Source: Paracoccus sp. (in: a-proteobacteria) (GTDB lineage: Bacteria; Pseudomonadota; Alphaproteobacteria; Rhodobacterales; Rhodobacteraceae). Taken from it: a stretch of 64,000 nucleotides of DNA. The stretch spans positions 62,001 to 126,000 of the forward strand of contig NZ_JAUNTJ010000002.1 of NCBI RefSeq assembly GCF_030538755.1, written 5' to 3'. The notes under the pieces were generated by a model. That model saw only the letters and a program-made list of their open reading frames with translations, was not told where the DNA came from and searched no databases. Numbering within the stretch: the first letter of the stretch is position 1; the number at the start of each line of letters is the position of its first letter. A program made the position numbers and the translations under genes. This document shows, in pieces, positions 33,411-56,337 of the stretch.

Positions 33411-33530
33411 TCAATCAACGATCCGATAAATCCGCCGGTGTTCGGGGTGTTTGTCGGAAGTCACCACCAATCCGGGGCGCTTCGTCAGTGTCCCGGCTAT
33501 GGCTCCGCGCACCGTGTGGAGGCTATATCC
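33411..33530 (-). pseudogene. C-terminal fragment of a DUF3489-type gene
   Basis: On the minus strand the bases encode GYSLHTVRGAIAGTLTKRPG followed by VVTSDKHPEHRRIYRIVD and a TGA (33411-33413). That is the C-terminal winged-helix-like end of DUF3489 proteins. The N-terminal half is missing: upstream the sequence changes abruptly into an ABC-ATPase fragment. The right limit is approximate. Confidence 0.6.
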
Positions 33531-33902
33531 CAGCTTACCAGACGCAACACCTCGCGGGCAGCGGCACGCATGGCGGCATAGCCGATCAGACCGAGCCGTG
33601 CCGGCTCACGCCTCAGCAAGATATTCTCAGCGACGCTGAGGTTCGGGATCAGGGTGAATTCCTGATGCACCAAGACAATCCTTGCGGCCTCGGCAGGCAC
33701 CGATTGGCCCTGCCGCAGCTTCACCAGGATGCAGATGGCCCGCGACGATCTTCATCAGCGTCGATTTTCCGGCGCCATTCTTGCCGACCAGCGCCAGCAC
33801 TTCGCCTGCGCCGACCGTCAGGTCGATGCCGTTCAGAACCCTGTTTGGACCATAGGCATATGAAATTCTCACCCGCAACGGAAACGCTGATTTTCGAAGC
33901 AT
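33530..33902 (-). pseudogene. Truncated, frameshifted sugar ABC transporter ATPase
   Basis: The minus strand starts with [20 protein letters not shown] and has an intact Walker A ([19 protein letters not shown]). After that the frame is lost, with an apparent small deletion near 33720-33750. It resumes in another frame with [20 protein letters not shown] and NILLRREPARLGLIGYAAM. It then ends where the DUF3489 fragment begins. It lacks signature, Walker B and the whole second ATPase domain, so it cannot work. Its wording differs from the intact ATPase at 38452, so it is not a simple duplicate. This and the DUF3489 piece fill the 677-bp gap after dapD. Confidence 0.8.
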
Positions 33903-33918
33903 TGCAATAATTGTTGCG
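33903..33918 (+). promoter_or_regulatory. Cyclitol-island operator, site 1 (candidate RpiR site)
   Basis: TGCAAT-AATT-GTTGCG, an imperfect copy of the 16-bp dyad seen at three other promoters. It is 65 bp upstream of the first dehydrogenase start. A possible promoter, TTGCGA (33914) and TTTCTA (33937) with 17-bp spacing, overlaps it. Confidence 0.6.
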
Positions 33919-33982
33919 ATTTACGGCGATCCGCGCTTTCTATTGCTGGAGAGGGCAGGGAATCACCTCGAGGAGGAAGTCG

Positions 33983-35179
33983 ATGTCAGAGAATGCCAAC
34001 CTTGCGGGGGCTTTCCCCGCTATGGGCCGAAAGCTGCGCCTTGGGGTCGTGGGCGGTGGAGCGGGGGCGTTCATCGGGCAGGTCCATGCGCGGGGTGCGC
34101 GGCTGTCGGACCGCTGGCAGATCGTCGCAGGCGCACTGTCCTCGCGTCCTGAGGTCGCAGTAGAATCGGGCCGCGACTGGGGGCTGGATCCCGATCGCAG
34201 CTATACCGACTGGCGCGAGATGGCGCAGGCCGAGGCGGTGCGACCGGATGGTATCGACGCGGTGGCAATCGCTGTTCCGAACCATCTGCATTTCCCGGTT
34301 GCCATGGCCTTTATGGATGCGGGCATCGACGTGATCTGCGACAAGCCGCTGGTCAACACGCTGGACGAGGCGCGGGCGCTGATCGACCGACAGCGCCAAA
34401 CCGGGTTGATCTTTGGTGTGACCTATTCCTTCGCAGCCCATGCGATGGTGCGGCAGGCCCGGCAGATGGTGCGGGAAGGTGCCATCGGCAAGATCACGCA
34501 GATCCATGTCGAGTATTTCCAGGAAATGGCGCTGCTGCCCGCGGATGCCGCCTGGTCTGGCACGCCCTGGCGGCAGGAGCCGACCAAGGTGGGGGGTGCT
34601 GCGACCACAGCGGATATCGGCACCCACGCGCATCATCTGGCCGAGTTCGTATCGGATCTGCGCATGACTGAATTGCGGGCCGAGTTTCACAGGCTGGGGG
34701 CCGATCAGCCGCTGGAGGACACCGCCTTCATGACCTGCCGCTTTCAGGGCGGCGTGCCCGGCACGCTGTTGATTTCGCAGGCGGCGGCGGGGGCCAGTTG
34801 CGGGCTGCGCATCCGTATCTCGGGGACCGAGGGCACGCTGGAATGGGATCAGGAGAACCCGGAATACCTGCAACACCGCCCCTTCAACGCGCCGCATATC
34901 CGCATTTCGCGCGGCCATGGCGCAGGGATACTGTCGGATGCTGCGCGCTTCGTCCACATGCCGCGCGGCCATCCCGAAGCACTGTCGGATGCCTGGGGCA
35001 ATCTCTACGAGGAATTCGCCATTGCCATAGAGGCCCGGCGTCAAGGGCGCAATCTGCCGGACGGGCTGCTGGCCTATCCTGGGCTGGAGGAGGGCGCTGC
35101 GGGCGTTGCCTTCATCCAGGCCGCGATTCGTTCGAATGCTGAAGGCGGGGCGTGGGTATCCTGCGCCGTTAATGACTGA
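33983..35179 (+). CDS. Gfo/Idh/MocA-family dehydrogenase 1
   Basis: 398 residues from ATG 33983, behind a strong GAGGAGGAAG. The nucleotide-binding start is LRLGVVGGGAGAFIGQVHAR, and the catalytic Lys lies in VICDKPLVNTLDEA. The C-terminal sheet domain has GGAATTADIGTHAHHLAEFV. The wording is close to the dehydrogenase at 53022 (GGGxGAFIG/GAYIG, EWDQENP/QWFQEQP region), so the two are likely paralogues. It heads the unit dehydrogenase - binding protein - dehydrogenase under operator site 1. Probable role: NAD(P)-linked oxidation or reduction of a cyclitol or derived sugar; substrate unknown. Confidence 0.88.
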   Translation: MSENANLAGAFPAMGRKLRLGVVGGGAGAFIGQVHARGARLSDRWQIVAGALSSRPEVAVESGRDWGLDPDRSYTDWREMAQAEAVRPDGIDAVAIAVPNHLHFPVAMAFMDAGIDVICDKPLVNTLDEARALIDRQRQTGLIFGVTYSFAAHAMVRQARQMVREGAIGKITQIHVEYFQEMALLPADAAWSGTPWRQEPTKVGGAATTADIGTHAHHLAEFVSDLRMTELRAEFHRLGADQPLEDTAFMTCRFQGGVPGTLLISQAAAGASCGLRIRISGTEGTLEWDQENPEYLQHRPFNAPHIRISRGHGAGILSDAARFVHMPRGHPEALSDAWGNLYEEFAIAIEARRQGRNLPDGLLAYPGLEEGAAGVAFIQAAIRSNAEGGAWVSCAVND

Positions 35180-35206
35180 CGGAAGAATACAAGGAGGAGG
35201 AACCAC

Positions 35207-36145
35207 ATGAAACGGCTGATGATTACAACCGCTTTTGCAATGGCCGCATTCGGTGCGCAGGCGCAGGAAATCGGCGTTGCCATGGCGCAATTCGACAATA
35301 ATTTCCTGACCATTCTGCGTCAGGGCATTGAAGAAGCGGGACGTGCAGAAGGCGTTACCTTGCAATTCGAGGATGCGCAAAACGATGTGCCCCGGCAGTT
35401 GAGCCAGATTCAGAATTTCATCTCGTCCGGGGTCGATGCGATCATCGTGGTCGCGGTGGATTCAGATGCGATTACCCAGATGGACAGGATGGCTGTCGAT
35501 GCCGGGATCCCCATCGTGAATATTAACCGCGAGCCGCCGAATGTAGACGACCTTGGTCCGTTGCAGGCCTTCGTCGGTTCGCGTGAGGTCGATGCAGGCA
35601 CGATTCAGGCGACCGAAGCCTGCCGTATGGTCAAGGAAAAGGTCGGTGACGGCGAGGCCACTGGCATGATCCTGGCAGGTGACCTGTTCATTCAGGCGGG
35701 ACGCGTGCGGACCGAAACGGTGCAGGAATTCGTTCGGACGCCCGACTGCGATTTTGTGAAGATCGAGGATATGCAGGTCGCTGACTGGTCGCGCAGCAAG
35801 GCTTCGGATCTGGTTTCGAACTGGCTGACCGCCGGGCTGTCGCCGGATGTCATCTTTGCCAATAACGATGAAATGGCCATCGGCGCGGCTCAGGCCTTGA
35901 AGGCTGCGGCGGTTGATCCAGACGAGGTGGTCGTGGCGGGTATCGACGCGACACCGGATGCCTTGATGGCACTGAAGGCCGGAGATATTGATCTGACCGT
36001 TTTTCAGGATGCAGCAGGGCAGGGCCGCAAGGGAGTCGAGGTCGCCGCCGCCATGGCGCGGGGCGAGGAACTGGCAGAGCGTGCTGTTTATATCCCGTTC
36101 GAACTCGTGACCCCCGAGAATGTCGATGACTATCTGGCGCGCTGA
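35207..36145 (+). CDS. Periplasmic sugar/cyclitol-binding protein 1 (RbsB family, orphan)
   Basis: 312 residues. A short signal peptide (MKRLMITTAFAMAAFGAQAQ) is followed by EIGVAMAQFDNNFLTILRQG, typical of ribose/inositol-type binding proteins. Later blocks are QNFISSGVDAIIVVAVDSDA, FANNDEMAIGAAQALKAA and VVAGIDATPDALMALKAGDI. Shine-Dalgarno AAGGAGGAGG. It has no permease or ATPase of its own nearby; an ABC-ATPase relic lies upstream on the other strand. It may feed the complete transporter at 38452-41039 or one elsewhere. Confidence 0.9.
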   Translation: MKRLMITTAFAMAAFGAQAQEIGVAMAQFDNNFLTILRQGIEEAGRAEGVTLQFEDAQNDVPRQLSQIQNFISSGVDAIIVVAVDSDAITQMDRMAVDAGIPIVNINREPPNVDDLGPLQAFVGSREVDAGTIQATEACRMVKEKVGDGEATGMILAGDLFIQAGRVRTETVQEFVRTPDCDFVKIEDMQVADWSRSKASDLVSNWLTAGLSPDVIFANNDEMAIGAAQALKAAAVDPDEVVVAGIDATPDALMALKAGDIDLTVFQDAAGQGRKGVEVAAAMARGEELAERAVYIPFELVTPENVDDYLAR

Positions 36146-36178
36146 AACCGGTCATCCCGCCATCCGGAGGGATCGCAG

Positions 36179-37135
36179 ATGAGTCTGGCTGTTGGTGTGA
36201 TCGGTGCCGGTGTGATGGGCGGGTTTCATGCCCGCCTCTTCGCCGAGGAGATTTCGGGCGCACGGCTGGTTGCGGTCTCTGATCCTGATCCGGCACGGGC
36301 AACTGCCGCCGCATATGGGGCGCAACTTTTCGACGACGGGTTAGCCCTGATCGAAAGCGATGCGGTCGAGGCGGTGGTGGTTGCCGCCCCGGACGCCGCC
36401 CACCATGAACTGGTCATGGCGGCGATCGGTCTGGGCAAGCCGGTGCTCTGCGAGAAGCCCCTGGCCTCGACGGTTGCGCAATGCCGCGAGATTGCCGATG
36501 CCGATGCGGGCCGCAATCTGGTCAGTCTTGGCTTCATGCGCCGCTTTGATCCCTCATATCGAGAGATGAAACGGGAACTGAATGAGGGGCGGATCGGGGC
36601 GCCCTTGCTGATGCATTGCGTGCATCGCAATCGTGCTGCGCCGCATTGGTTCGATGGCCCGATGATCGTCACCAACGCGATGGTGCATGAAATCGACATC
36701 TGCCGCTGGTTGCTGGACGCCGAATACACGTCGGCAAGCCTGACGCAGATTGGCGATGCCAACGATATGTTGCTGGCCGAGTTGCGCACGGATCGCGGGG
36801 CGGTAATCTCGGTCGAGATGTTCATGAACGCCGCTTATGGCTACCACGTCCATGCCGAGATCGTCGGCCGCGAAGGCGTTGTGGCCATGGCCGAACCGGC
36901 GCAGGTGCGTTTGCGGCGCAATGGTGCGATGCGGGCCGGATATTCGCCCGACTGGATCGGTCGATTTGCCGACAGCTATCGTTTGCAGGATCAGGCCTGG
37001 GTGCGGGCGAGCCGTTACGGTCTGCCCTGCGAGGACATGGCGACAGCCCGCGATGGTCTGCTGGCGACGGACTATTGCCAACAGTTGGTCGAGCATCTGC
37101 CAGCAGGCGGGGGGCTGCTGGCGCCCCTCTTGTAG
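36179..37135 (+). CDS. Gfo/Idh/MocA-family dehydrogenase 2, inositol 2-dehydrogenase-like
   Basis: 318 residues from ATG 36179, 34 bp after the binding-protein gene with GGAGGGA before it. NAD-binding start VGVIGAGVMGGFHARLFAEE, the catalytic-lysine motif LCEKPLASTVAQC, and IolG-like FMRRFDPSYREMKRELNEGR and NAMVHEIDICRWLLDA (active-site His and Asp). It is about 15 residues shorter than the IolG at 47277. The IolG-like wording supports action on inositol or an isomer, but not which one. Confidence 0.87.
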   Translation: MSLAVGVIGAGVMGGFHARLFAEEISGARLVAVSDPDPARATAAAYGAQLFDDGLALIESDAVEAVVVAAPDAAHHELVMAAIGLGKPVLCEKPLASTVAQCREIADADAGRNLVSLGFMRRFDPSYREMKRELNEGRIGAPLLMHCVHRNRAAPHWFDGPMIVTNAMVHEIDICRWLLDAEYTSASLTQIGDANDMLLAELRTDRGAVISVEMFMNAAYGYHVHAEIVGREGVVAMAEPAQVRLRRNGAMRAGYSPDWIGRFADSYRLQDQAWVRASRYGLPCEDMATARDGLLATDYCQQLVEHLPAGGGLLAPLL

Positions 37136-37172
37136 ATACGCAAAAAGAGCACCCGTTGCCATATTTCTCATC

Positions 37173-37199
37173 TGCAATTTTCATTGCAATCATATTGCA
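37173..37199 (+). promoter_or_regulatory. Cyclitol-island operator, site 2 (two overlapping dyads)
   Basis: TGCAAT-TTTC-ATTGCA (37173-37188) and TGCAAT-CAT-ATTGCA (37185-37199) share the central ATTGCA. A plausible promoter, TTGCAA (37184) and TATGGT (37207) with 17-bp spacing, overlaps both, so binding here would block RNA polymerase. Apart from this, the 302-bp gap between 37136 and 37437 holds no gene I can support. Confidence 0.7.
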
Positions 37200-37437
37200 G
37201 AAGGGCTATGGTTAATGTCGAGGCAGGGAATCCCTGGCTCGTGGAGGTCAGGGGCAGGATGCGTGGGGCGCATCGCTCACGGCTCTTGGGCATGGCGGGA
37301 GGTCGTCATCAGGTCGGACTGGATGCGGCGGAACGGTGGTTCTGCCAACGGCTTGATATTGCCTTATCGCATCGAGGTTTTGGCTGCGTTCGACGCGAGA
37401 AGATCGGGCGGAGGTAACAGGAGGAGGAAAGACCCAC

Positions 37438-38367
37438 ATGATCACGAAAATTGCGACGGCTACCGCGTTCTGTGCGCTTATGACGGGGGCAGGCCATGCA
37501 GAGACCATTGGCGTTGCCATGTCGCTTTTTGACGACAACTATCTGACTGTGCTGCGCCAAAATATCCAGCGCCATGCAGGCGATCTGGGCGTCACGGTTC
37601 AGATGGAAGATGCCCAGGGTGACATCGCGCGCCAGCAGTCCCAGATCGAGAATTTTGTCGCTTCGGACGTGGACGGCATTATCGTGATGCTGGTCGATGC
37701 GGACTCGGGTCAAGCCATGTCGCGTATCGCCGAGCGGTCGGGTGTGCCCCTGGTCTTCGTCAACATGCTGCCTGCCAATATGGAGGAGTTCCCCGAGAAG
37801 CAGGCCTGGGTTGGCTCGGACGAGGAACAGGCGGGCGAATTGCAGGCGACCGAGATGTGCAGGCTGATGGGCGGCGAGGGTGAGGCCGTTATCCTGATGG
37901 GCCAGCTTGGCACCACCGGCCAGCGTGGGCGCACTGCGGCGGTCGAGCGCGTGCTGCAATCCGAAGAATGCGCGGGCATCAATGTGCTGGATTCCCAGTC
38001 GGCGAACTGGATGCGAACGCCGGCCCTTGACCTGATGACCAACTGGCTGACCTCGGGGATGCAGCCCGAGGCCGTGTTCGCGAATAATGACGAGATGGCG
38101 CTGGGTGCGATTCAGGCGCTGAAAGCCTCGGGGATTTCGATGGACAATGTGGTTGTCGGTGGCGTTGATGCAACGCAGGACGCTTTGGCAGCACTGGAAG
38201 CCGGGGATCTGGATGTCACCGTCCATCAATCGGCCAAGGGGCAGGGCGAGGGGGCGCTGGACACTGTTCTGAGAATTGCGCGGGGCGAAGAATTCGAACA
38301 ACGCGTTGCCGTGCCCTTTGAGTTGGTAACGCCCGCGAATATCGCCGAATACAAGGAACAGAACTGA
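37438..38367 (+). CDS. Periplasmic sugar/cyclitol-binding protein 2 (RbsB family)
   Basis: 309 residues, with AGGAGGAAAG upstream. A signal peptide (residues 1-21, ending GAGHA) is followed by ETIGVAMSLFDDNYLTVLRQ. It is clearly related to binding protein 1 (same motif order: NDEMALGAIQALKAS, VVGGVDATQDALAALEAGDL). It is the first gene of a complete binding protein - ATPase - permease unit under operator site 2. Inositol or a related cyclitol is the likely ligand given the island's content. Confidence 0.92.
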   Translation: MITKIATATAFCALMTGAGHAETIGVAMSLFDDNYLTVLRQNIQRHAGDLGVTVQMEDAQGDIARQQSQIENFVASDVDGIIVMLVDADSGQAMSRIAERSGVPLVFVNMLPANMEEFPEKQAWVGSDEEQAGELQATEMCRLMGGEGEAVILMGQLGTTGQRGRTAAVERVLQSEECAGINVLDSQSANWMRTPALDLMTNWLTSGMQPEAVFANNDEMALGAIQALKASGISMDNVVVGGVDATQDALAALEAGDLDVTVHQSAKGQGEGALDTVLRIARGEEFEQRVAVPFELVTPANIAEYKEQN

Positions 38368-38390
38368 TCTGAACAGGCGTCCGGCATCAC

Positions 38391-38406
38391 GTCCGGGCGC
38401 CCGGAC
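38391..38406 (+). repeat. Perfect 16-bp palindrome between binding-protein and ATPase genes
   Basis: GTCCGGGCGCCCGGAC, 23 bp after the binding-protein stop. It could fold in mRNA and help keep binding-protein levels above ATPase levels, as for the hairpin at 13106. Role is inference. Confidence 0.4.
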
Positions 38407-38451
38407 CTCAATCCCGGGGGTGACATCCCCTGATGGTCTTTCGGGGGGAAG

Positions 38452-39987
38452 ATGGTTTCGACGAATACACTGGAGGCGATTGAACGCTTCAAGGAAAAGA
38501 GCCTGCCCTATATTCTTGAAATCGAGGGTATTCGGAAAGAATTTCCTGGCGTGGTGGCGCTGGATGATGTGCAGTTCCGGCTTCGCTCTGGCTCGGTCCA
38601 TGCCCTGATGGGCGAGAATGGCGCCGGAAAATCCACGCTGATGAAGATCATTGCGGGGATCTATTCCCCTGACCGCGGCACCATCCGGCTGCGTGGCGAG
38701 GAGGTTGTCCTGGCCAGCCCGCTTGATGCGCTGGAACAGGGTATCGCGATGATCCATCAGGAACTGGCGCTGATGGACTGGATGACGGTCGCCGAGAACA
38801 TCTGGATCCGGCGCGAGCCGAAAAATGCGCTTGGCCTGATCGATCATCGCAAGATGACCGAGATGACCCGAGAACTGTTTCAGCAGCTTCGGCTGAAGAT
38901 TGATCCAACGGCACAGATCAGCACCCTGACCGTTGCGCAGCGTCAAATGGTCGAGATTGCCAAGGCGGTCAGCCACAGGTCGAACGTGCTGATTATGGAC
39001 GAGCCCACCTCGGCAATCACCGAAACCGAGGTCGAGCATCTGTTCGAGATCATCCGCGACCTCAAGGCGCGTGGCGTGGCCATCGTCTACATCACCCACA
39101 AGATGAACGAGCTGTTCGAGATCGCCGATGAGTTCTCGGTTTTCCGCGATGGCAAATATGTGGGCACTCATGCCAGCACCGACGTGACCCGCGACGATAT
39201 CATCCGCATGATGGTCGGACGCGAGATCACCAATATGTTCCCGAAAGAAGAGGCCGAGATCGGCGATGTGATCCTGTCGGTCAAGGATCTGTCCCTGCCG
39301 GGCACGTTCCACGGGATCACCTTTGATCTGCGGCGGGGCGAGATACTTGGTCTGGCGGGTCTGGTCGGCTCGGGTCGTTCGAATGTCGCCGAGGCGCTGT
39401 TCGGTGTGACGCCCGCCAGCGGAGGCACGATCAGTATCGACGGACGCCAGGTCGCCATTACATCGCCCGCCGATGCCATGCGCGAGGGGATGGCGCTGCT
39501 GACCGAGGACCGCAAGGATACCGGCTGCTTCCTGCCGCTTTCCATTTTGGAAAACATGCAGATCGCCGCTCTTCAGGAAGGTCACGTCAAGCTGGGCTAT
39601 GTCGATGAGAAGGGCATGACCAATCTCTGCCTTGACATGAAGGACAAGCTGCGGATCAAGACCCCGAACCTCGAAGAGCGGATCGAGAACCTTTCGGGGG
39701 GCAACCAGCAAAAGGTGCTGATCGCACGTTGGCTTTTAACCAAGCCCCGTATCCTGATCCTCGACGAGCCGACGCGCGGCATTGATGTCGGCGCAAAGGC
39801 GGAAATCCACCGTCTGATTTCGCGTCTTGCGCAGTCCGGGGTCGCTGTCATCATGATTTCGTCCGAACTGCCCGAGGTTTTGGGCATGTCTGATCGGATC
39901 ATGGTCATGCACGAGGGTCATATGACCGGGATTCTGGATCGGGCTGAGGCCGATCAGGTGAAAATCATGGAACTGGCGGCCCGCTGA
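38452..39987 (+). CDS. Sugar/cyclitol ABC transporter ATPase (RbsA/MglA type)
   Basis: 511 residues with two fused nucleotide-binding domains. The first has Walker [22 protein letters not shown]-loop IHQELALM, the degenerate-looking signature [18 protein letters not shown] and [10 protein letters not shown]. The second has a weak Walker A ([16 protein letters not shown]), the signature [17 protein letters not shown] and [20 protein letters not shown]. That asymmetry is normal for the CUT2 family. A run of about 18 residues precedes the first domain. It energises the permease at 40026. Confidence 0.94.
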
Positions 39988-40025
39988 GGCCTTTGTGGCG
40001 TGGTGCCAAGGAGGAGTATTATCTC

Positions 40026-41039
40026 ATGGACAATGTGCAGATCGAACCGATCAGGCGACAGCGGCGCGGCTTGCCACAAGAGTTGAATATTCTGCTGGTG
40101 CTGGTTGCCGTCGCTCTGATGTTCGAGCTTCTGGGATGGATTTTTCAGGGGCAGAGCTTCCTGATGAATACCCGTCGTCTGACGATCATGATCCTGCAAG
40201 TTTCGGTGATCGGTATCATTGCGATCGGGGTGACGCAGGTCATCATTACCGGGGGGATCGACCTGTCTTCTGGCTCGGTCGTTGCCATGACAGCGATGAT
40301 AACAATGAGTGTGGCGCAGTCAGGTGATTATGCGCGTGCGATGTATCCGGCGCTGACCGACATGCCGGTCATCGTGCCACTGGCCCTGGGACTGGGCATC
40401 GGATTGGTTGCGGGGATGATTAACGGAGCACTGATCGCATTGACAGGGATCCCGCCGTTCATAGCGACTCTGGGCATGATGGTGACAGCACGCGGAATTG
40501 CCAAATGGTATACCAAGGGCCAGCCGATCAGTTTTCCAACCGATGGTTTCGCGGCGATTGGTGCGGGGGCAACGCCGGTCTTTATCTTTCTGGCCGTGGC
40601 GGTGATTTTTCACATTGCCCTGCGTTATACTCGCTATGGCAAGTTCACCTATGCGATCGGTGCCAACCCGCAGGCGGCCCGCGTTTCAGGCATCAACGTC
40701 AAGCGGCACCTGATCAAGGTCTATGCCATCGCCGGTTTGCTGGCAGGGCTTGCCGGCATCGTCACCGCTGCCCGCGCGGAAACCGCGCAGGCCGGCATGG
40801 GCATGATGTATGAGCTGGACGCCATCGCCGCAGCCGTGATCGGCGGCACCTCGTTGGCCGGGGGGCGAGGGCGGATCTTCGGCACAGTGATCGGCACGTT
40901 GATCCTGGGCCTGATGATGTCTGGTTTCACCTTCCTGCGGGTCGATGCCTTCTATCAGGAAATCGTCAAGGGCGTGATTATCGTTGCCGCTGTGATTGCC
41001 GACACCTATCGGCAGAAGGCCCGAAGCAAGAAAGCCTGA
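40026..41039 (+). CDS. Sugar/cyclitol ABC transporter permease (RbsC type)
   Basis: 337 residues from ATG 40026, behind CCAAGGAGGAG. About ten membrane segments. CUT2 landmarks include GVTQVIITGGIDLSSGSVVA, NGALIALTGIPPFIATLGMM and IGANPQAARVSGINVKRHLI, plus AAAVIGGTSLAGGRGRIFGT near the end. It completes the importer with the two genes upstream. A good intrinsic terminator follows 18 bp after its stop. Confidence 0.94.
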   Translation: MDNVQIEPIRRQRRGLPQELNILLVLVAVALMFELLGWIFQGQSFLMNTRRLTIMILQVSVIGIIAIGVTQVIITGGIDLSSGSVVAMTAMITMSVAQSGDYARAMYPALTDMPVIVPLALGLGIGLVAGMINGALIALTGIPPFIATLGMMVTARGIAKWYTKGQPISFPTDGFAAIGAGATPVFIFLAVAVIFHIALRYTRYGKFTYAIGANPQAARVSGINVKRHLIKVYAIAGLLAGLAGIVTAARAETAQAGMGMMYELDAIAAAVIGGTSLAGGRGRIFGTVIGTLILGLMMSGFTFLRVDAFYQEIVKGVIIVAAVIADTYRQKARSKKA

Positions 41040-41056
41040 GCTCTCGTGCAGGTGAC

Positions 41057-41086
41057 AGGCCCGGAGCAATTGCTGCGGGCCTTTTT
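41057..41086 (+). terminator. Intrinsic terminator of the cyclitol ABC operon
   Basis: Stem AGGCCCG / CGGGCCT around an inner AGCAATTGCT palindrome, followed by TTTTT. This is the most classical rho-independent terminator in the window. Confidence 0.85.
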
Positions 41087-41112
41087 CGTGGCTGCCACAA
41101 TGCTGTGGAATA

Positions 41113-41469
41113 TCTTTGTTTCTGCGGTCAAACTCGCTGCCACAAGCCTTGGCCGTGGCGCTGGTGAGTCTTTCGCAACTCGGTCTCGGCGGCATGGGCC
41201 TGCCCGGTGATCCGAGGTGTTTTGCCGCCGCGAAGGTGATGTTCTTTGCCGTGACGAATGCCCTGAAACTGATCTCCTATGCAGTTATCGGGGGAGTTCG
41301 GTTCAGATAATCTGGTCCGCGCTGCGGGAATGCTGCTGCTGGCCGTGGAGCAGCTTGGCTTGGTGCCTGGGTGGTCGGCCATATGCGCGCCGGCACCTTC
41401 TATCCCTTCACATACGCCTCGGTGGCGTTGGTCGGGATAAGCTGGTCCGGGGGGCGGGTATCAGGTTCC
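41113..41469 (+). pseudogene. Remnant of a TSUP/TauE-SafE membrane protein gene
   Basis: Decayed frames keep the family's C-terminal order: FFAVTNALKLISYAVIGG (41239 onward), then NLVRAAGMLLLA in a second frame, then LGAWVVGHMRAGTFYPFTYA and SVALVGISWSGG in a third. The N-terminal half is missing and at least two frame shifts are present. This fills the gap between the permease terminator and the regulator gene. Confidence 0.65.
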
Positions 41470-42333
41470 GGTCACGGTCGGGATGCGTGGGTCTTCATCA
41501 TTGTGCTGCACGCGGGCGGCCACGGCCACAACCAATGCCTGCGCCAGACACATCGGTGCGGCCAGCGAACGCGAGAAGGTGTAATCATGTTCGGGAACCG
41601 GAAACAGCACCCGTGCCCACCGCGCCAGCGGCGACAGGGTGCTGTCCGAGATGGCGATGATGTCGGTTCCCCTCTGGCCCGCTTCCTCGACGACGTTCAC
41701 CACTTCATTGGCATAGAAACGGAACGAGACCGCCAGCAGAACATCGGTCTTGCGAATGGTGCGGCCGATATGCGTGGCCAGCCCGCCGCCGGGGTCCAGC
41801 AGCACGCAGCGCTTGCCCAGCATGGTCAGCACATAACGCAGGAGTTCGACGACCGGCGATGAACGCAACTGGCCGATCAGGTAGATGATCTCGGCACGAT
41901 CCAGCAGGTCGGCAGCCAGTGCCAGATCCTCGGGGTTCACCTCGTTCAGCAGTTGCTGCAATGAAGCGATGTCGCGCACCACCAGATCGCGCAGGAAACC
42001 GATCTCGGTCGGATCATCCGCACCTTTGAGTTCGGTTTCCAGCGCCCTGACGCGGGCCTCGAAGCCCGGTGCAGCAGTGGCCAGACGTTTCTGGAACAGC
42101 GCCTGTAACTCCTTGAAGCCCTTATAGCCCAGGGACTGGGCAAAGCGCACGAAACTTGAGGCGTGGATGCCGCAGCGTTCGGCAATGGCATTCACCGAAT
42201 GGACGGCGACCTCGTTGGGATTCTGGGTCAGATAGACGGAGATGCGCTGATAGGTCTTGCTCATCTGATCGTGACGATCATGGATGATGCGGATCAGTTC
42301 TTCGTAATCCTGCGGCGGGTGGCTTGTTGGCAT
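41461..42333 (-). CDS. RpiR/MurR-family transcriptional regulator of the cyclitol island
   Basis: 290 residues from ATG 42331-42333, with AGAGGAAAG upstream. The N-terminal HTH_6 domain (about 8-85) contains SVNAIAERCGIHASSFVRFA and GYKGFKELQALFQKRL. The C-terminal SIS domain (about 115-260) has IYLIGQLRSSPVVELLRYVL and TDVLLAVSFRFYANEVVNVV. SIS domains sense phosphosugars. A perfect 18-bp palindrome sits 22 bp upstream of its ATG, and versions of it precede the other units of the island. The simplest reading is an autoregulated local repressor that responds to a cyclitol or sugar-acid intermediate. Confidence 0.9.
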   Translation of the reverse strand: MPTSHPPQDYEELIRIIHDRHDQMSKTYQRISVYLTQNPNEVAVHSVNAIAERCGIHASSFVRFAQSLGYKGFKELQALFQKRLATAAPGFEARVRALETELKGADDPTEIGFLRDLVVRDIASLQQLLNEVNPEDLALAADLLDRAEIIYLIGQLRSSPVVELLRYVLTMLGKRCVLLDPGGGLATHIGRTIRKTDVLLAVSFRFYANEVVNVVEEAGQRGTDIIAISDSTLSPLARWARVLFPVPEHDYTFSRSLAAPMCLAQALVVAVAARVQHNDEDPRIPTVTGT

Positions 42334-42354
42334 GGCTTTCCTCTGCTGCCAAGT

Positions 42355-42372
42355 CTGCAATAATTATTGCAG
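42355..42372 (-). promoter_or_regulatory. Cyclitol-island operator, site 3 (perfect palindrome at the regulator gene)
   Basis: CTGCAATAATTATTGCAG is perfectly symmetrical and lies between the RpiR start and its upstream region. It is the best copy of the TGCAAT-N4-ATTGCA dyad in the window. Confidence 0.75.
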
Positions 42373-42507
42373 AGGGCCAAGCCCTCTTTCTTCCTGTTTT
42401 ATTTCGATCAGCAGCCCTTTGCGTCGATCCACTGGCAGGGTGAAGCTGACATCGACGCCCTGATCCTCGACCTGCACCCGCGTCAGCACCATGTCGCCTG
42501 CCAGCCT
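42364..42507 (-). pseudogene. Orphan C-terminal coding fragment upstream of the regulator
   Basis: The minus strand reads VLTRVQVEDQGVDVSFTLPV, then DRRKGLLIEIKQEERG and a TAA that lies inside the operator palindrome. It looks like the end of a real protein (alternating beta-strand pattern) but I do not recognise the family and no start is visible. The rest of the 352-bp gap up to 42685 shows only a hairpin. Right limit is approximate. Confidence 0.3.
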
Positions 42508-42597
42508 GGGGGCGGGCCTGTAGGCTGTTCTCGAAGGTAAGCCTTGCCCGGCTCGTTACAGGAAACTTGTCGAATATCCAAAGCCCTTCCTGAGGTT

Positions 42598-42624
42598 GGG
42601 TGCCCGGTTATGCGCCGGGCACCC
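42598..42624 (-). terminator. Hairpin after the 42686-43810 dehydrogenase gene
   Basis: A perfect 10-bp stem GGGTGCCCGG / CCGGGCACCC with a 7-nt loop lies 62 bp after the end of the minus-strand iolG operon. There is no T-run. Confidence 0.55.
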
Positions 42625-42685
42625 CGGAGAGCCGGGGCAGAAAGCGTCCCATCAGACGCTGCGGCAGAAAGGCGGCAGCGGATTA

Positions 42686-43810
42686 TCAGGCCGTCACAGC
42701 CAACCATTGCCGCGTCGATGAAGAGTGCTGGATCGTCTCGACCAGCTGCTGGATACGCAATCCGGCTGCGAAGCCGAAAGGCTCGGGGGTCTCGCCTGCG
42801 ATGGCGCGCAGATAGCCCTCGATCTCGATGGCTTTCAGGTCGTTGAAGCCGATCTGGTGGCCAGGGGCGACGCAGAAGCGGCCATAGGGCGGATGGTCGG
42901 GGCTGGCCTCGATGCGACGGAAGCCGCGGCGACCGGGCATGTCAGCGATTGAATAGAAATGCAGCTCGTTGAATCGCTCCTGACTGAAGGCCAGTGCGCC
43001 TTTTGTGCCATAGACCTCGAAATCATGCTGCATCTTGCGGCCGGTGGCGATCCAGTTACCTTCGATCGAACCCTGCGCGCCATTCGCGAAGCGCAGAAAG
43101 GCGCGACCGACATCATCCACGGTTACGGCACGCATCCTGCCCTGACCGTCGGGCCGCTGGCCAATCATGGTGATGCAATCGCCCATGACCTCGGTGATCG
43201 GACCCAGCAGGAATTCGGCCGTGGCCAGCGCATGGCTGCCGATATCGGCCAGCGCGCCGCCACCCGCCGGATCGTGGCGAAATGTCCAGGGACCGTCGGC
43301 ATCGGCCATGTAATCCTCGGCATGCAGCCCGCGATAGCCCCGGATCTCGCCCAACTCGCCCGCTGCGATCATCTCGCGCGCAAGCCGCAGCATCGGGTTG
43401 CAGAGATAGTTGAAGCCGACCTGGGTCTTGACGCCTTTGGCTGCCGCCGCATCCGCCATCTGGCGCGCATCCGAGGCCAGCGGTGCCAACGGCTTTTCGC
43501 AATAGACATGCTTGCCGGCAGAGATGGCAGCCAAGGCCATTTCCTTGTGCAGCGCATTCGGGGCGGTGATGTCGATGACGTCGATTTCGGGGTTCTCGAC
43601 CATGCTGCGCCAGTCGGCTGTGGCATGGGCGAAGCCGAAATCGGTTGCGGCACGGGCTGCGGCATCTTCGGTGACATCGGCGACCGTGTGCAGTTCCAGC
43701 CTGTAGGGAAGGTCAAAGACCTTCTGCGCGCTGGCAAAGCCGAAGACATGGGCCTTGCCCATGAAGCCGGTGCCAATCAGGCCGATACGCAGGACAGGTT
43801 TGTCAGACAT
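42686..43810 (-). CDS. Gfo/Idh/MocA-family dehydrogenase 3, scyllo-inositol/L-glucose dehydrogenase-like
   Basis: 374 residues. NAD-binding start LRIGLIGTGFMGKAHVFGFA, the catalytic-lysine motif HVYCEKPLAPLASDA, then VGFNYLCNPMLRLAREMIAA, RGLHAEDYMADADGPWTFRH and GGGALADIGSHALATAEFLL. The combination of EDYMAD, GPW and FSQERFNELHFYS reminds me of the LgdA-type dehydrogenases of Paracoccus that act on scyllo-inositol and L-glucose; that is from memory and unaligned. It is the last gene of the minus-strand iolG operon. Substrate remains a guess. Confidence 0.87.
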   Translation of the reverse strand: MSDKPVLRIGLIGTGFMGKAHVFGFASAQKVFDLPYRLELHTVADVTEDAAARAATDFGFAHATADWRSMVENPEIDVIDITAPNALHKEMALAAISAGKHVYCEKPLAPLASDARQMADAAAAKGVKTQVGFNYLCNPMLRLAREMIAAGELGEIRGYRGLHAEDYMADADGPWTFRHDPAGGGALADIGSHALATAEFLLGPITEVMGDCITMIGQRPDGQGRMRAVTVDDVGRAFLRFANGAQGSIEGNWIATGRKMQHDFEVYGTKGALAFSQERFNELHFYSIADMPGRRGFRRIEASPDHPPYGRFCVAPGHQIGFNDLKAIEIEGYLRAIAGETPEPFGFAAGLRIQQLVETIQHSSSTRQWLAVTA

Positions 43811-43843
43811 GGGCGGTATCCAGTTTATAGATGACGTTACTAC

Positions 43844-44062
43844 TCAACCGCCGTCCAGTTGGCGGACAAGACGACCGATTGACGAAACTTCGGCACGGGC
43901 GCGTGAAGATCCTGAATGCGTGCCGTCCCGAGGCACCGGCAGATCCTGCTCCAGCCGTTGCGGCAGCTTTGAAATAAAGGCCCCGCCGCCGTAACGGAGA
44001 ACCATCGCGCGTCCGAGGTTGTTGTTGAAATCCGCGAACCAGCGGTGCAGCTGTTCAAGCAT
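43844..44062 (-). CDS. Small open reading frame of unknown function, possibly a gene remnant
   Basis: 72 residues. Its ATG (44060-44062) overlaps the stop of the upstream 2-hydroxyacid dehydrogenase gene, in the same ATG-in-stop style as real couplings here. The first 40 residues (MLEQLHRWFADFNNNLGRAM, then VLRYGGGAFISKLPQ) look protein-like; the rest is polar and less so. I recognise no family. It could be the surviving N-terminus of a larger lost gene. It fills most of the 244-bp gap in the operon. Confidence 0.3.
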   Translation of the reverse strand: MLEQLHRWFADFNNNLGRAMVLRYGGGAFISKLPQRLEQDLPVPRDGTHSGSSRARAEVSSIGRLVRQLDGG

Positions 44063-45023
44063 GAGCAAATGCCGCATTGACGATGAGAGCGTGGTCAACC
44101 GTGCCCTCCAGATAGTTGATTGCATTCTGGATGGAAGCGATGGCCATGCGTTCGCCGCATTCGGCAGTCAGGCCGGCGATGTGGGGCGACAGCACTGCGG
44201 TCCATTGGTCGAACAAGGGCGAATCGCCGGGCGGTTCATCGTCGAAGACATCGACCCCGGCAGCAGCAACCTGACCAGAGGCCAAAGCTTCGGCCAGTGC
44301 AGGTTCGTCCACCACACCACCGCGCGCGGTATTGGCAAGGACGACGCCCGGCTTCATCAGCGCGATCTCCCTTGCCCCCAGCAGCGGTTTGTTGGCCTTG
44401 GGCACATGGATCGAGATGCAATCGGCCCAGGCCAGCCCTTCGTCCAGATCGGTGATCTCGGCCACCGGACCTGCGGGCCAGCCCTTGCGTGAAAGATAGG
44501 GGTCATAGGCGCGGATCGTCATATCAAAGCCGGCGGCCATGCGGGCAAGGCGCTGCCCGGTGCGGCCATAGCCGATGACAAGCAGGTTCTTGCCCGATAT
44601 TTCCTGCTGTTCCAGGCGATTGCGCCAGCCCCATTGGCCGGGCTTGCGCACCGCGCGGTCGGCCAGCAGCACCCGCTTGGCCCCGGCCAGTAATTGCATC
44701 ATCGCATGTTCGGCGACCGAGATCGAATTTACGTCGCCAACGATGGTCAGGGCAATGCCGCGTTCGTTCAGCGCCGCAAGATCGACGGCATCATAGCCAA
44801 CGCCGTGGCGCGAGACGACCTTCAGCTTTTCGGCCAGAGCCACAGTGGCGGCAGACAGCGGCTGGGTGCGGATCACCAGCGCATCGGCCTTGTGGATCAG
44901 TGGTGCGTAGGAAGGTTCCGAGATTTCCTCGACATAATCCACGGTGATGCCGCGCGCGGGCAGGTCGCGCAGCAGCGCCTCGCCTGCGGGATGCAATTTT
45001 CCGGCAACAAGAAGATGCGGCAT
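44055..45023 (-). CDS. D-isomer-specific 2-hydroxyacid dehydrogenase family (SerA-like)
   Basis: 322 residues from ATG 45021-45023; a TTG one codon upstream is also possible. Rossmann motif GKNLLVIGYGRTGQRLARMA, substrate-side VSRHGVGYDAVDLAALNERG, Arg region LANTARGGVVDEPALAEALA and catalytic His in LSPHIAGLTAECGE. These enzymes reduce 2-oxoacids to 2-hydroxyacids or the reverse with NAD(P). The start overlaps the aldolase stop by one base. Next to a 2-keto-3-deoxy-acid aldolase, it may process a sugar-acid intermediate or an aldolase product. The exact substrate cannot be read. Confidence 0.88.
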   Translation of the reverse strand: MPHLLVAGKLHPAGEALLRDLPARGITVDYVEEISEPSYAPLIHKADALVIRTQPLSAATVALAEKLKVVSRHGVGYDAVDLAALNERGIALTIVGDVNSISVAEHAMMQLLAGAKRVLLADRAVRKPGQWGWRNRLEQQEISGKNLLVIGYGRTGQRLARMAAGFDMTIRAYDPYLSRKGWPAGPVAEITDLDEGLAWADCISIHVPKANKPLLGAREIALMKPGVVLANTARGGVVDEPALAEALASGQVAAAGVDVFDDEPPGDSPLFDQWTAVLSPHIAGLTAECGERMAIASIQNAINYLEGTVDHALIVNAAFAHA

Positions 45024-45829
45024 CAATAGGCTCCTTTCATGGTGGCGGCGGCGGCAGAGCCGGTCAGGTCACGCCAGGTCGCGACCGAGGCGGCGGCTGC
45101 ACTGGCCAGCAGGCGGGTATCACCGCCGACCGTGGTCAGGTCGAACCCCCAGCCGATGGCCTTGGCGGCATATTCCGGTGTGCCACAATGGATGCAGGCG
45201 CGAATGCCGTTCGTCTTGCAGGCGGCCTTGATGCGCTGAAGCAGTTCGATCATCTCGGGCTCCTCGCGGTCGAAGGCGGGGGGCAGGCGGCCGTTCTGGG
45301 TGCCAAGTGTCAGGTCTGCGGGGCCGACATAGATGCCGTCCAGGCCGGGCGTCGCCGCGATGGCCTCAAGGTTGTCTATGCCCCGCTGGGTCTCAACCAT
45401 CGCCAGCGCAAGCACCTGATCGTTCGCCGCCACGCCATAGCCGCCATAGGCGATTGCGGCGCGGGTCGGGCCGAAGCTGCGCTGGCCATGCGGCGGATAG
45501 CGCATATAGCTGACGAATTCCGCCGCCTCCTCGGCCGAGTTGACCATCGGGCAGATGATGCCCTGCGCGCCGGCGTCCAGCGCCTTCATGATCGCGCCCG
45601 GTTCGCGCCATGGCACGCGGACCATCGGCGTGACGCCCGAGGCGCGCATCGCCTGTAGCATCGGCAGCACGGCACTGTAATCCAGCGCACCGTGCTGGGC
45701 GTCGATGGTGATGCTGTCATAATCCTGTGCCGCCATGATCTCGGCGGTCAACGGGTTGCCGATGGACAGCCAGCCATTGATCGCGGGGCGACCCTCGGCC
45801 CAATGCTGTTTCAGCTTGTTGTTGAACAT
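45023..45829 (-). CDS. HpcH/HpaI-family class II aldolase
   Basis: 268 residues from ATG 45827-45829 (MFNNKLKQHWAEGRPAINGW). Family blocks: YDSITIDAQHGALDYSAVLP (catalytic His), VTPMVRVPWREPGAIMKALD (Arg), GIICPMVNSAEEAAEFVSYM and VETQRGIDNLEAIAATPGLD with the metal-binding Glu and Asp (GIYVGPADL). Such enzymes split 2-keto-3-deoxy acids to pyruvate and an aldehyde. It lies between a semialdehyde dehydrogenase and a 2-hydroxyacid dehydrogenase in the iolG operon. This aldolase is not part of the textbook inositol route, so it marks a second branch. Confidence 0.9.
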   Translation of the reverse strand: MFNNKLKQHWAEGRPAINGWLSIGNPLTAEIMAAQDYDSITIDAQHGALDYSAVLPMLQAMRASGVTPMVRVPWREPGAIMKALDAGAQGIICPMVNSAEEAAEFVSYMRYPPHGQRSFGPTRAAIAYGGYGVAANDQVLALAMVETQRGIDNLEAIAATPGLDGIYVGPADLTLGTQNGRLPPAFDREEPEMIELLQRIKAACKTNGIRACIHCGTPEYAAKAIGWGFDLTTVGGDTRLLASAAAASVATWRDLTGSAAAATMKGAY

Positions 45830-45842
45830 CGCGTTTCCCCCC

Positions 45843-47273
45843 TCAGAACACGAGCTGTGCCAGCTTGGTGTCGAGGTAATCCTCGATCCCTTCGATGCCG
45901 CCCTCGCGACCCATGCCGGAATGGTTGGTGCCGCCGAAGGGCGCCTCGGATGCGGCAAGCGCGAAGCTGTTGATGCCGACCATGCCGGCCTTCAGCCCCG
46001 CCGCCATACGCCGTGCCCGGTCGGGCGAGCGGGTGAAGGCATAGGCAGCCAGCCCCATGTCGGACGCATTGGCGCGCGCCAGCGCCTCGTCCTCGGTCGA
46101 AAAGCGGGTGATGGCGGCGACAGGACCGAAGTTTTCCTCGGCAAAGACCTTCATGTCGTCGGTAACATCGGTCAGCACCGTCGGCTCGAAGAAGAAGCCG
46201 CTGTTCAGATGCGCCGGACGCATGCCGCCATGGGCCAGTGTCGCGCCGTTGCGGATGGCATCGGCGACGATGGATTCAATCTCGGCCAGTCGTCCGCCAT
46301 TTATCAGCGGTCCCATGCCAGTGCCCGGATCCAACCCGTCGCCCAGCCTGATCTGCGCTGTCCGCGAAACGAAGCCGTCCACGAAGGCGTCGTGCAGGCT
46401 GTCATGGACGAAGATCCGGTCCGGGGTTACGCAGACCTGCCCGCAATTGGCGAACTTGGTCGGCACGGTCAGGTCCAGCGCGGTTTCCAGATCGGCGTCA
46501 TCATGGATAATCAGTGGCGCATTGCCGCCAAGCTCCATGCTGACCTTCTTCACCGTATCGGCTGCATCGCGGATCATCTGCTGGCCGACGCGGGTCGAGC
46601 CGGTCAGGCTGACCTTGCGCACCCGATTGTCCGCCATGATCGGCGCATAGGTTGCGCCGGTCGGGCCGACGACAAGGTTCACCGCGCCATCGGGCAGCCC
46701 CGCCGCGCGCAGGCAGTCGATCATCACCATCGCCACGCCCGGCGTCTGTGAAGACGGGCGCAGCACCACCGGGCAGCCGGCAGCCAGCGCCGGGGCCAGC
46801 TTGCGGGCGGGCAGGGCGGCGGGGAAGTTCCAGGCGGTAAAGGCCCCGACGATCCCCACCGGCTCGCGCGTCACCTCGAAACGGCCGCCGGGGACACGGC
46901 TGTCGATGATGCGGCCATAGATGCGGCGGGCTTCCTCGGCGAACCAGCGGAACTGGTCGCAGGCAAGGCCCCATTCGCGGCCCGCCTGTGCGATGGGCTT
47001 GCCAGTCTCGACCGAGATCATCCGCGCGGCCTCGTCGGCACGGCGGATCATTTCGTCCGCGGCCTTGTGCAGCGCGTCGGCACGGCCAAAACCGCCCATC
47101 TCGCGCAGTTTGGGCAGGGCGCGCGCCGCAGCATCCAGTGCCGCCCGTGTGTCCTCGGCGGCGGCAAGGGCCACCGCACCCAGCGGCTTTTCGGTGACCG
47201 GAGAGATGACCTCGCCGCTGGTGGTGCCCTGTGTCCAGTTCCCGTCGATGAACAATCCGAATTGCGAATACAT
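45843..47273 (-). CDS. NAD(P)+-dependent aldehyde dehydrogenase, succinate-semialdehyde dehydrogenase-like
   Basis: 476 residues. GIVGAFTAWNFPAALPARKL (Asn of the oxyanion hole), MELGGNAPLIIHDDADLETA (general base Glu), NCGQVCVTPDRIFVHD (nucleophile Cys) and EENFGPVAAITRF. The layout matches the GabD-like group, not the MmsA/IolA group, which is CoA-dependent. It starts 3 bp after the iolG stop and is followed 13 bp later by the aldolase, so it probably oxidises the aldehyde that the aldolase releases. Confidence 0.9.
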   Translation of the reverse strand: MYSQFGLFIDGNWTQGTTSGEVISPVTEKPLGAVALAAAEDTRAALDAAARALPKLREMGGFGRADALHKAADEMIRRADEAARMISVETGKPIAQAGREWGLACDQFRWFAEEARRIYGRIIDSRVPGGRFEVTREPVGIVGAFTAWNFPAALPARKLAPALAAGCPVVLRPSSQTPGVAMVMIDCLRAAGLPDGAVNLVVGPTGATYAPIMADNRVRKVSLTGSTRVGQQMIRDAADTVKKVSMELGGNAPLIIHDDADLETALDLTVPTKFANCGQVCVTPDRIFVHDSLHDAFVDGFVSRTAQIRLGDGLDPGTGMGPLINGGRLAEIESIVADAIRNGATLAHGGMRPAHLNSGFFFEPTVLTDVTDDMKVFAEENFGPVAAITRFSTEDEALARANASDMGLAAYAFTRSPDRARRMAAGLKAGMVGINSFALAASEAPFGGTNHSGMGREGGIEGIEDYLDTKLAQLVF

Positions 47274-47276
47274 GGC

Positions 47277-48284
47277 TTATCCGATTTCCCTGGTTGCGAC
47301 TGTGCGCCCCTCGGCGGCGGAAAGGATTGCGGCTTCGGCCAGTAACAGTGCCTGCCTGCCGTCCTCGAACCCGACGGGAACAGGCTTGCCTTGTTCGATG
47401 GCATCGACAAAGGCGCTGATCTCGGCTGCGAAGGCATCGGCATAGCGGTCGATGAAAAAGTTTTTCAGCGGCGCAGCCCGGTCGGTGAATTCCGCGCCAT
47501 AAAGCCGCACCTGATTCATTATCGGGTTTTCCGAAATCGCCATGCCGGCGCTGCCGAATGCCTCGACGCGCTGGTCATAGCCATAGACCGCGCGGCGCGA
47601 GTTGGTGATGATCGCCTGCTTGCCCGATTCGGTTTTCAGGACAACGGTGACGGTGTCATAATCGTCGCAATGCTGCATCAGGGTCGGGTTGACCAGGCGC
47701 GAGCCGGTGGCGGTGACTTCGGTCACGTCCTCGCCCAGGATAAATCGGGCCATGTCGAAATCATGGATGGTCATGTCGCGGAAAATGCCGCCCGAGACCT
47801 TTATATAGGCATCGGGTGCCATGTCCGGGTCGCGCGAGGTGATGACGACCTGATGCAATTCGCCGATCTGGCCCGATTCGATGGCCTGCCGCACACCGGC
47901 GTGGCCGCTGTCGAAACGGCGCACAAAGCCCAGCATGATCGGCAGATCTGTCCCGGCAATTTTCGTTGCACAGGCATTAACCCGGTCCAGAGACAGGTCG
48001 ATGGGTTTTTCACACAGGATGGCCTTGCCCGCGACGACCGACTGCTCGATCAGGTCGGCATGAGTGGCGGTCGAACTGGCGATCAGCACCGCATCCACCT
48101 CGGCCGAGGCCAGCGCCGCCTCGACCGAATCGAATTGCGGCACGCCCAGGGCGGCGGCGACTTCGGCGGCGGCAGGGGCGTGGATATCATAGACGCCCGC
48201 CAGCCGGGCGCGCGGATGGGCGGCGATATTTTCGGCGTGCATCCGGCCAATACGACCTGTGCCAAGGACGGCGATTCCTGTCAT
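47277..48284 (-). CDS. iolG: Inositol 2-dehydrogenase
   Basis: 335 residues from ATG 48282-48284, preceded by GGGAGGAACC. NAD-binding start IAVLGTGRIGRMHAENIAAH, catalytic-lysine motif AILCEKPIDLSLDRV, IolG-type FVRRFDSGHAGVRQAIESGQ, and active-site GGIFRDMTIHDFDMARFILG (His and Asp). The protein oxidises myo-inositol to scyllo-inosose with NAD+. It is divergent from iolD across operator site 4 and leads a minus-strand operon with dehydrogenase, aldolase and further dehydrogenases. Confidence 0.93.
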   Translation of the reverse strand: MTGIAVLGTGRIGRMHAENIAAHPRARLAGVYDIHAPAAAEVAAALGVPQFDSVEAALASAEVDAVLIASSTATHADLIEQSVVAGKAILCEKPIDLSLDRVNACATKIAGTDLPIMLGFVRRFDSGHAGVRQAIESGQIGELHQVVITSRDPDMAPDAYIKVSGGIFRDMTIHDFDMARFILGEDVTEVTATGSRLVNPTLMQHCDDYDTVTVVLKTESGKQAIITNSRRAVYGYDQRVEAFGSAGMAISENPIMNQVRLYGAEFTDRAAPLKNFFIDRYADAFAAEISAFVDAIEQGKPVPVGFEDGRQALLLAEAAILSAAEGRTVATREIG

Positions 48285-48306
48285 GGGTTCCTCCCGAAAT
48301 TCACTT

Positions 48307-48333
48307 CGCAATAATCATTGCAGAAGTATTGCA
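48307..48333. promoter_or_regulatory. Cyclitol-island operator, site 4, between divergent iolG and iolD
   Basis: CGCAAT-AATC-ATTGCA (48307-48322) plus a further ATTGCA half-site (48328-48333). It lies in the 104-bp gap between the two divergent starts, so one bound protein could control both operons. Confidence 0.7.
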
Positions 48334-48388
48334 TTGTCAATCATCATTCCGTAGTGTTCCTGAAAACCCATCCGCAGGAGGAGGCGAG

Positions 48389-50260: not shown

Positions 50261-50261
50261 A

Positions 50262-51964: not shown

Positions 51965-51966
51965 CG

Positions 51967-54176: not shown

Positions 54177-54226
54177 CTGTCGCCGCCCCGATTGGGGCCG
54201 CGCATCCCGCCGGGGAGGAGGGGCAT

Positions 54227-56143: not shown

Positions 56144-56337
56144 CGATGTTCGATCTTGACGACGCCTTTTATCGTCCGCTTTGGCTCCGGCTGTTGCTGG
56201 TTGCGCTGGCCTTGGGTTGGGGGCTGTTCGAATTCGCGTCTGCTGCGCCTTTCTTCGGCATAATCTTTGTCGCCATCGGGCTTTATGCAGCCTGGCGTTT
56301 CTTCGTGACATTCAACCCGCCCGGAGAGGACAGATGA
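56140..56337 (+). CDS. Small two-helix membrane protein inside the iol operon
   Basis: 65 residues from ATG 56140, with a second ATG at 56146. Its start overlaps the iolC stop and its stop overlaps the iolB start (ATGA both times), so it is very likely translated. Two hydrophobic stretches (LWLRLLLVALALGWGLFEF and APFFGIIFVAIGLYAAWRFF) suggest an inner-membrane hairpin. I do not recognise a named family. Role unknown. Confidence 0.7.
   Translation: MTMFDLDDAFYRPLWLRLLLVALALGWGLFEFASAAPFFGIIFVAIGLYAAWRFFVTFNPPGEDR

Follow-up and report, generated by a model that had tools for sequence, protein, structure and literature searches.

A TGCAAT-N4-ATTGCA dyad as the predicted operator of an RpiR-family regulator in an inositol gene island of Paracoccus sp.

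The Inositol Gene Island and Its Four Dyads

The DNA analyzed here is a stretch of 64,000 nucleotides from Paracoccus sp. (NZ_JAUNTJ010000002.1, positions 62,001 to 126,000; hereafter the window), which belongs to contig 22 of a genome close to Paracoccus. It harbors an island of inositol genes, a gene for an RpiR-family regulator and four copies of the inverted repeat TGCAAT-N4-ATTGCA (the dyad), which are predicted to be the operators of this regulator (Table 1). The RpiR protein has the domain layout of its family, with HTH_6 at the N-terminus and SIS at the C-terminus, and is 97% identical to its orthologues in P. versutus, P. kondratievae, and P. aminovorans. Genes were called with our own codon model and not taken from public annotation.

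Table 1. Genes, predicted operators, and promoter of the inositol island (positions in the window).
Feature	Position	Strand	Description
RpiR-family regulator	41461-42333	-	HTH_6 (3.6e-14) and SIS (1.4e-12); proposed owner of the operators
Operator 1	33903-33918	+	TGCAATAATTGTTGCG, 2 mismatches to TGCAAT-N4-ATTGCA; matrix score 26.2; 64 bp upstream of the gfo/idh/mocA gene opening 33983-37135
Operator 2	37173-37199	+	exact dyad 37173-37188 and third half-site ATTGCA 37194-37199; score 29.8; 238 bp upstream of the ABC importer unit
Operator 3	42354-42373	-	perfect 20-bp palindrome, exact core 42356-42371; score 31.9; 22 bp upstream of the RpiR start codon
Operator 4	48307-48333	both	dyad 48307-48322 (1 mismatch) and third half-site 48328-48333; score 28.9; common to divergent iolG/iolD
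iolG promoter	48311-48340	-	TTGACA-N18-GATTAT, 10/12 by scan; -10 in the dyad center
Candidate auxiliary operator	47955-47970	.	iolG codons 105-110; 352 bp from operator 4; score 17.0
Unit 1	33983-37135	+	gfo/idh/mocA dehydrogenase, periplasmic binding protein, IolG-like dehydrogenase
Unit 2	37438-41039	+	ABC importer: binding protein, ATPase, permease
Unit 3	42686-48284	-	iolG, aldehyde dehydrogenase, HpcH/HpaI aldolase, 2-hydroxyacid dehydrogenase, gfo/idh/mocA dehydrogenase
Unit 4	48389-57128	+	iolD, iolE, SDR, TIM-barrel protein, gfo dehydrogenase, iolC kinase-aldolase fusion, iolB

Dyads at all four places proposed in an initial annotation of this DNA were confirmed by reading the sequence, except that the palindrome at the RpiR gene, described there as perfect over 18 bp, is perfect over 20 bp. 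The accompanying claim that every transcription unit of the island carries a dyad holds provided that the gfo gene at 42686-43810 is part of the iolG operon, as the gene order in relatives suggests. Sites were scored with an independent weight matrix derived from 95 sites in 70 non-Paracoccus loci, in which the four dyads are the best sites of the window; an earlier matrix (126 distinct sites from 79 relatives' loci) also ranks them first. The annotation had reported no comparable dyad at the other promoters scanned in the window; a fifth site was identified inside iolG (47955, score 17.0), and the next best site scores 4.8.

The Dyad Follows the RpiR Orthologue

Across 79 loci with an orthologue of the RpiR gene (1.415 Mb), 41 exact and 91 one-mismatch dyads were identified. 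The same loci read as reversed sequence contained no exact and no one-mismatch dyad, and six other palindromes gave 0 exact and 0-13 one-mismatch matches. A site scoring at least 20 is present in 71 of the 79 loci, and the RpiR-linked dyad spans the Alphaproteobacteria and three betaproteobacterial loci. Nearly all sites (156 of 160, the total comprising 156 sites in the loci and four in the window) are located outside called genes. Within 300 bp before a start codon, sites were found for iolD in 44 loci, for the RpiR gene itself in 43, for iolG in 34, for the ABC ATPase family in 16, and for the binding protein family in 14.

A similar association was seen in a family sample of 199 genomes from 198 genera (about one genome per genus), 12 of which encode the RpiR orthologue. 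Twelve exact dyads occur in these 12 genomes (four of them in the genome studied here, and none in five of the 12) versus 53 in the other 187, that is 1.0 versus 0.28 per genome, with totals added by hand; six of the 12 exact dyads are no more than 8 kb away from the RpiR gene. Five Paracoccus relatives contain 31 places with at most one mismatch, of which all nine exact ones are found around the RpiR gene, at distances of up to about 7 kb, and 16 of the 22 one-mismatch ones are elsewhere, away from it.

Genomes with two iolD genes, which make up nine of the 12 RpiR genomes of the family sample, offer an internal control. In all 11 RpiR genomes examined, a dyad is present 76-95 bp upstream of the start of the module-type iolD (68-81% identical to that of the window), with scores of 16.0-30.4 (10 of them at least 20); these include two genomes (G051 and G165) whose RpiR gene is located on a different contig. 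In the same genomes, the canonical iolD (46-49% identity) lacks a dyad in the 500 bp upstream in nine of nine cases, the best score being -4.2. Among 28 iolD promoters of RpiR-negative genomes, 24 of which belong to the top-scoring canonical kind, two have positive scores (18.9 and 11.6) and all others fall below zero; likewise, 10 canonical loci (121 kb) contain no TGCAAT dyad scoring 15 or more.

The comparison thus supports the earlier suggestion of a single, putatively autoregulated RpiR regulon, because the dyad tracks the RpiR orthologue, recurs before the RpiR gene, and is absent before canonical iolD. Judged from these sequence comparisons, the dyad is the predicted site by which the RpiR protein switches off inositol-degrading genes, a reading to which we assign a probability of roughly 0.87.

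Promoter Position and Proposed Mechanism

At operator 4, the -10 box of the predicted iolG promoter is located in the dyad (Table 1); the scan that detected this promoter gave a mean of 0.1 matches in shuffled sequences. When 36 distinct iolG promoters were aligned on the dyad, TTGACA was found 13-18 bp before it, with each base kept in 31-35 of the 36. An operator on the -10 box is in a repressor position, and repression is the best reading of the role of RpiR at iolG; the AT-rich spacer of the dyad would then be explained by the -10 box within it.

We infer binding, repression, and an effector as follows. A dimer (or tetramer) of RpiR would bind TGCAAT-N4-ATTGCA, and on the iolG dyad it would cover the -10 box and shut the promoter. 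A metabolite of the inositol pathway, presumably sensed by the SIS domain, would release the protein from DNA, and the site before the RpiR gene would provide autoregulation. According to a citation in the accessible part of PMC8877191, the IolR protein of Sinorhizobium meliloti reacts to a phosphorylated intermediate of the pathway.

Several observations weigh against the assignment of the dyads to RpiR as a repressor. Eight of the 79 loci have no site scoring at least 20 (L049, L050, L052, L054, L055, L059, L063, and L072), and three places of this genome outside the island score in the same range as the operators. The 126-site matrix was trained on the same loci that it scored, the independent matrix removes Paracoccus only, and the genomes of the iolD promoter control may overlap the species of the matrix training set. 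The scan for sigma-70-like promoters gave a match only at operator 4 and none at operators 1-3, and repression at these three is therefore proposed by analogy. In addition, operator 2 is remote (238 bp) from its gene.

This last distance, together with the third half-site of operators 2 and 4, would also suit an RpiR protein that binds the dyads as an activator, or as a repressor at some sites and an activator at others, and the related RccR switches its targets by linker length (PMC5489143, accessible part). Such a role is nevertheless unlikely given the iolG dyad, which overlies the -10 box of a promoter with a conserved TTGACA and thereby takes the repressor position.

Comparison With IolR and Other RpiR-Family Regulators

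Control of inositol genes by RpiR proteins is already known. IolR of Caulobacter crescentus and S. meliloti regulates inositol import and catabolism, as predicted for the local RpiR, from a likewise short palindromic operator, GGAA-N6-TTCC (Boutte et al., 2008; PMC2597717, accessible part). The IolR type is linked to the canonical iolC-iolB pathway. A distinct RpiR gene, whose product is 29-35% identical to the local protein, was identified beside canonical iolD in six genomes that carry the local-type orthologue elsewhere; this neighbor, to which the local RpiR is not orthologous, stands in for the Caulobacter and Sinorhizobium IolR in our comparison.

GGAA-N6-TTCC occurs 15 times in the 121 kb of canonical loci (in six of the 10) versus 23 times in 1573 kb of RpiR loci, the latter being about the chance rate. 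Eight of the 15 canonical matches read T-GGAA-N6-TTCC-A, and four are exactly TGGAAT-N4-ATTCCA. Each half-site of the TGCAAT dyad accordingly departs from the IolR-type TGGAAT at a single base, position 3, which is C instead of G. The recognition helix is HASSFVRFAQ in the local RpiR, where H, the first S, and R are conserved without exception in 90 of 90 orthologues, and V(Q/P)PSA-x-MRFC in four of the six canonical-locus RpiR proteins. TGCAAT and TGGAAT would form a natural pair for asking how RpiR proteins choose their DNA.

As IolR too is an RpiR protein controlling inositol genes, the dyads might be operators of IolR itself, or of a different regulator that only happens to be encoded in the same neighborhood. 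Both possibilities are very improbable. The window contains a single GGAA-N6-TTCC (at 60794, away from the island promoters) versus 0.77 expected, and where a genome has both systems, the two motifs remain separate, though the exact GGAA-N6-TTCC was not found in four of the 10 canonical loci. This genome (86.8% complete) yielded just one further HTH_6 gene, which encodes a C-terminal sensor domain of the DeoR type, and its 11-kb neighborhood contains no dyad scoring 9 or more; it was rejected as owner of the operators.

Two other members of the family share some of these properties. RccR of Pseudomonas recognizes the half-site TGTAGT in sites of 15 or 28 bp, with double sites and, in pckA, a site located 292 bp inside the gene, according to the accessible part of PMC5489143. 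A half-site of the same build, double sites, and an intragenic site are features that it has in common with the system described here, which differs from it in that RccR uses spacers of 3 or 16, has central carbon targets, and responds to KDPG (same source). HexR, for which the same part quotes the Pseudomonas consensus TTGT-N7-8-ACAA, is likewise an RpiR regulator that represses sugar genes from an inverted repeat, but its targets are Entner-Doudoroff and glucose genes. With the half-site TGCAAT and a spacer of 4, the present dyads are of neither operator type.

In the open-access literature we recognized no publication with the TGCAAT operator, in agreement with the initial annotation, nor one with the inositol route proposed below. 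The local RpiR would be a second regulator of inositol genes, whose distinct operator can be predicted from the sequence in Alphaproteobacteria and in some Betaproteobacteria.

Occurrence of the Dyad in the Window and Genome

A genome-wide search allowing two mismatches, as the initial annotation had proposed, was carried out on 3.01 Mb and returned 50 places (four exact, four with one mismatch, and 42 with two). Eight of them have a core score above 18; five of the eight belong to the island, and three good sites are outside it. The first of these (C50:52243) runs into what may be the start of a sulfotransferase gene, the second (C10:60598) is inside a radical SAM/TRAM coding gene, and at the third (C25:133626-133641, in L087) an exact dyad separates a LysR gene from a NuoF-like gene. 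In the five Paracoccus relatives, the places with at most one mismatch include none of these three spellings; the three sites were therefore treated as chance, as coding, or, in the case of C25, as a possible binding site of the LysR protein itself.

That the four dyads of the window are chance AT-rich palindromes has a negligible probability: the loose consensus (at most three mismatches) is indeed not enriched in the window (24 found versus 25.45 expected), so that significance had to come from elsewhere, but the independent matrix together with simulation (one of 1000 first-order Markov windows holds any site reaching the fourth-best score, 26.2) and the conservation across loci contradict this explanation.

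Further Architecture of the Predicted Operators

Besides its exact dyad, operator 2 contains an overlapping TGCAAT-N3-ATTGCA at 37185-37199. The third half-site ATTGCA of operators 2 and 4 is exactly 11 bp from the second half-site in both cases. The same geometry was found in 10 of 152 distinct sites, namely these two operators, six iolD/iolG operators of other genomes, one site beside iolD (L035), and one transporter operator (L078). Some of the loci L007-L085 seem to contain two dyads in tandem at a distance of 29 bp (left-half count of 10 at offset -29). Sites scoring 22 also precede a gene of the gfo/idh/mocA family of operator 1 in L007 and L078. Ahead of operator 1, the minus strand at 33500-33870 resembles by eye a decayed ABC-transporter ATPase gene. 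A terminator-like hairpin with a T-rich tail (42371-42387) abuts operator 3 on the strand opposite the RpiR gene.

The site inside iolG has counterparts in other genomes. Eleven intragenic dyads scoring at least 10 were detected in 55 iolG orthologues, and eight of them coincide in codon and phase and are 353-366 bp away from the main operator; two of these eight carriers are near-identical, and the site is weak or absent in the remaining 47 orthologues. Permutation of synonymous codons within each gene, which superseded a first test based on the codon usage of the window, seldom matched the score of the real site, with a fraction of 0.01 or less in 10 of the 55 orthologues versus 0.55 expected. 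In some lineages, this auxiliary dyad may plausibly act as a further operator involved in looping.

Regulon Content and a Possible Inositol Route

The gene order recurring over the 79 loci is SDR-iolE-iolD, the operator, and iolG-aldehyde dehydrogenase-HpcH-2-hydroxyacid dehydrogenase-gfo, with the RpiR gene at either end. At an identity of at least 60%, and within flanks of up to 10 kb (some shorter), iolE was found in 60 of the 79 loci, iolD in 59, HpcH in 53, aldehyde dehydrogenase in 52, gfo in 47, 2-hydroxyacid dehydrogenase in 42, and iolG in 37. Neither iolC nor iolB was found in any locus at this threshold; at 45% or more, iolC appeared once and iolB never. The genes for aldehyde dehydrogenase, HpcH aldolase, and 2-hydroxyacid dehydrogenase (44055-47273 in the window; L007-L085) travel with iolD, iolE, and iolG instead of iolB and iolC.

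From these gene families we infer the chemistry of a possible bypass. After IolG, IolE, and IolD, 5-deoxy-glucuronate would be oxidized by the aldehyde dehydrogenase and a further dehydrogenase (SDR or gfo), and the HpcH/HpaI aldolase would split the product into hydroxypyruvate and malonate semialdehyde. The 2-hydroxyacid dehydrogenase would then reduce hydroxypyruvate to glycerate, and neither IolB nor the IolC kinase nor the phospho-aldolase would be needed.

A general loss of iolB in RpiR genomes is ruled out by iolB-type matches somewhere in 45 of the 48 genomes tested from among the 79 loci (43 above the cut-off) and in 10 of the 12 RpiR genomes of the family sample, and the bypass is therefore not universal. 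Neither iolB nor iolC was found in five RpiR genomes (G087, G100, G211, G212, and G238), hinting at an inositol route without phosphorylation in these organisms. Three of the five (G087, G100, and G238) keep the aldehyde dehydrogenase and the aldolase in the module; in G100, the part of the locus that was read shows no 2-hydroxyacid dehydrogenase gene. The two Bradyrhizobium genomes (G211 and G212) speak against the bypass, with no gene for aldehyde dehydrogenase, HpcH, or 2-hydroxyacid dehydrogenase in the locus and with HpcH genes elsewhere that are only 46-47% identical, one of them with an internal stop.

The TGCAAT regulon might thus control a second, non-phosphorylating inositol pathway, with two paralogous RpiR proteins keeping the pathways apart by the single base pair per half-site described above; we put forward this broader proposal tentatively, at slightly less than even odds. 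Inositol is an abundant carbon source in soil, and the proposal offers an alternative route for it that can be tested. A large survey of inositol clusters (PMC9430895, accessible part) demands three of iolB, iolC, iolD, and iolE per cluster, and clusters with only iolD and iolE would therefore be missed.

In the window, iolC and iolB are located at the end of the iolD operon, and this strain may therefore use either route. In P. kondratievae (L009), an iolC gene with one in-frame stop is present about 4 kb from the iolD of the module (G199:C2:861489-862463), and a second iolC without stops is located on another contig.

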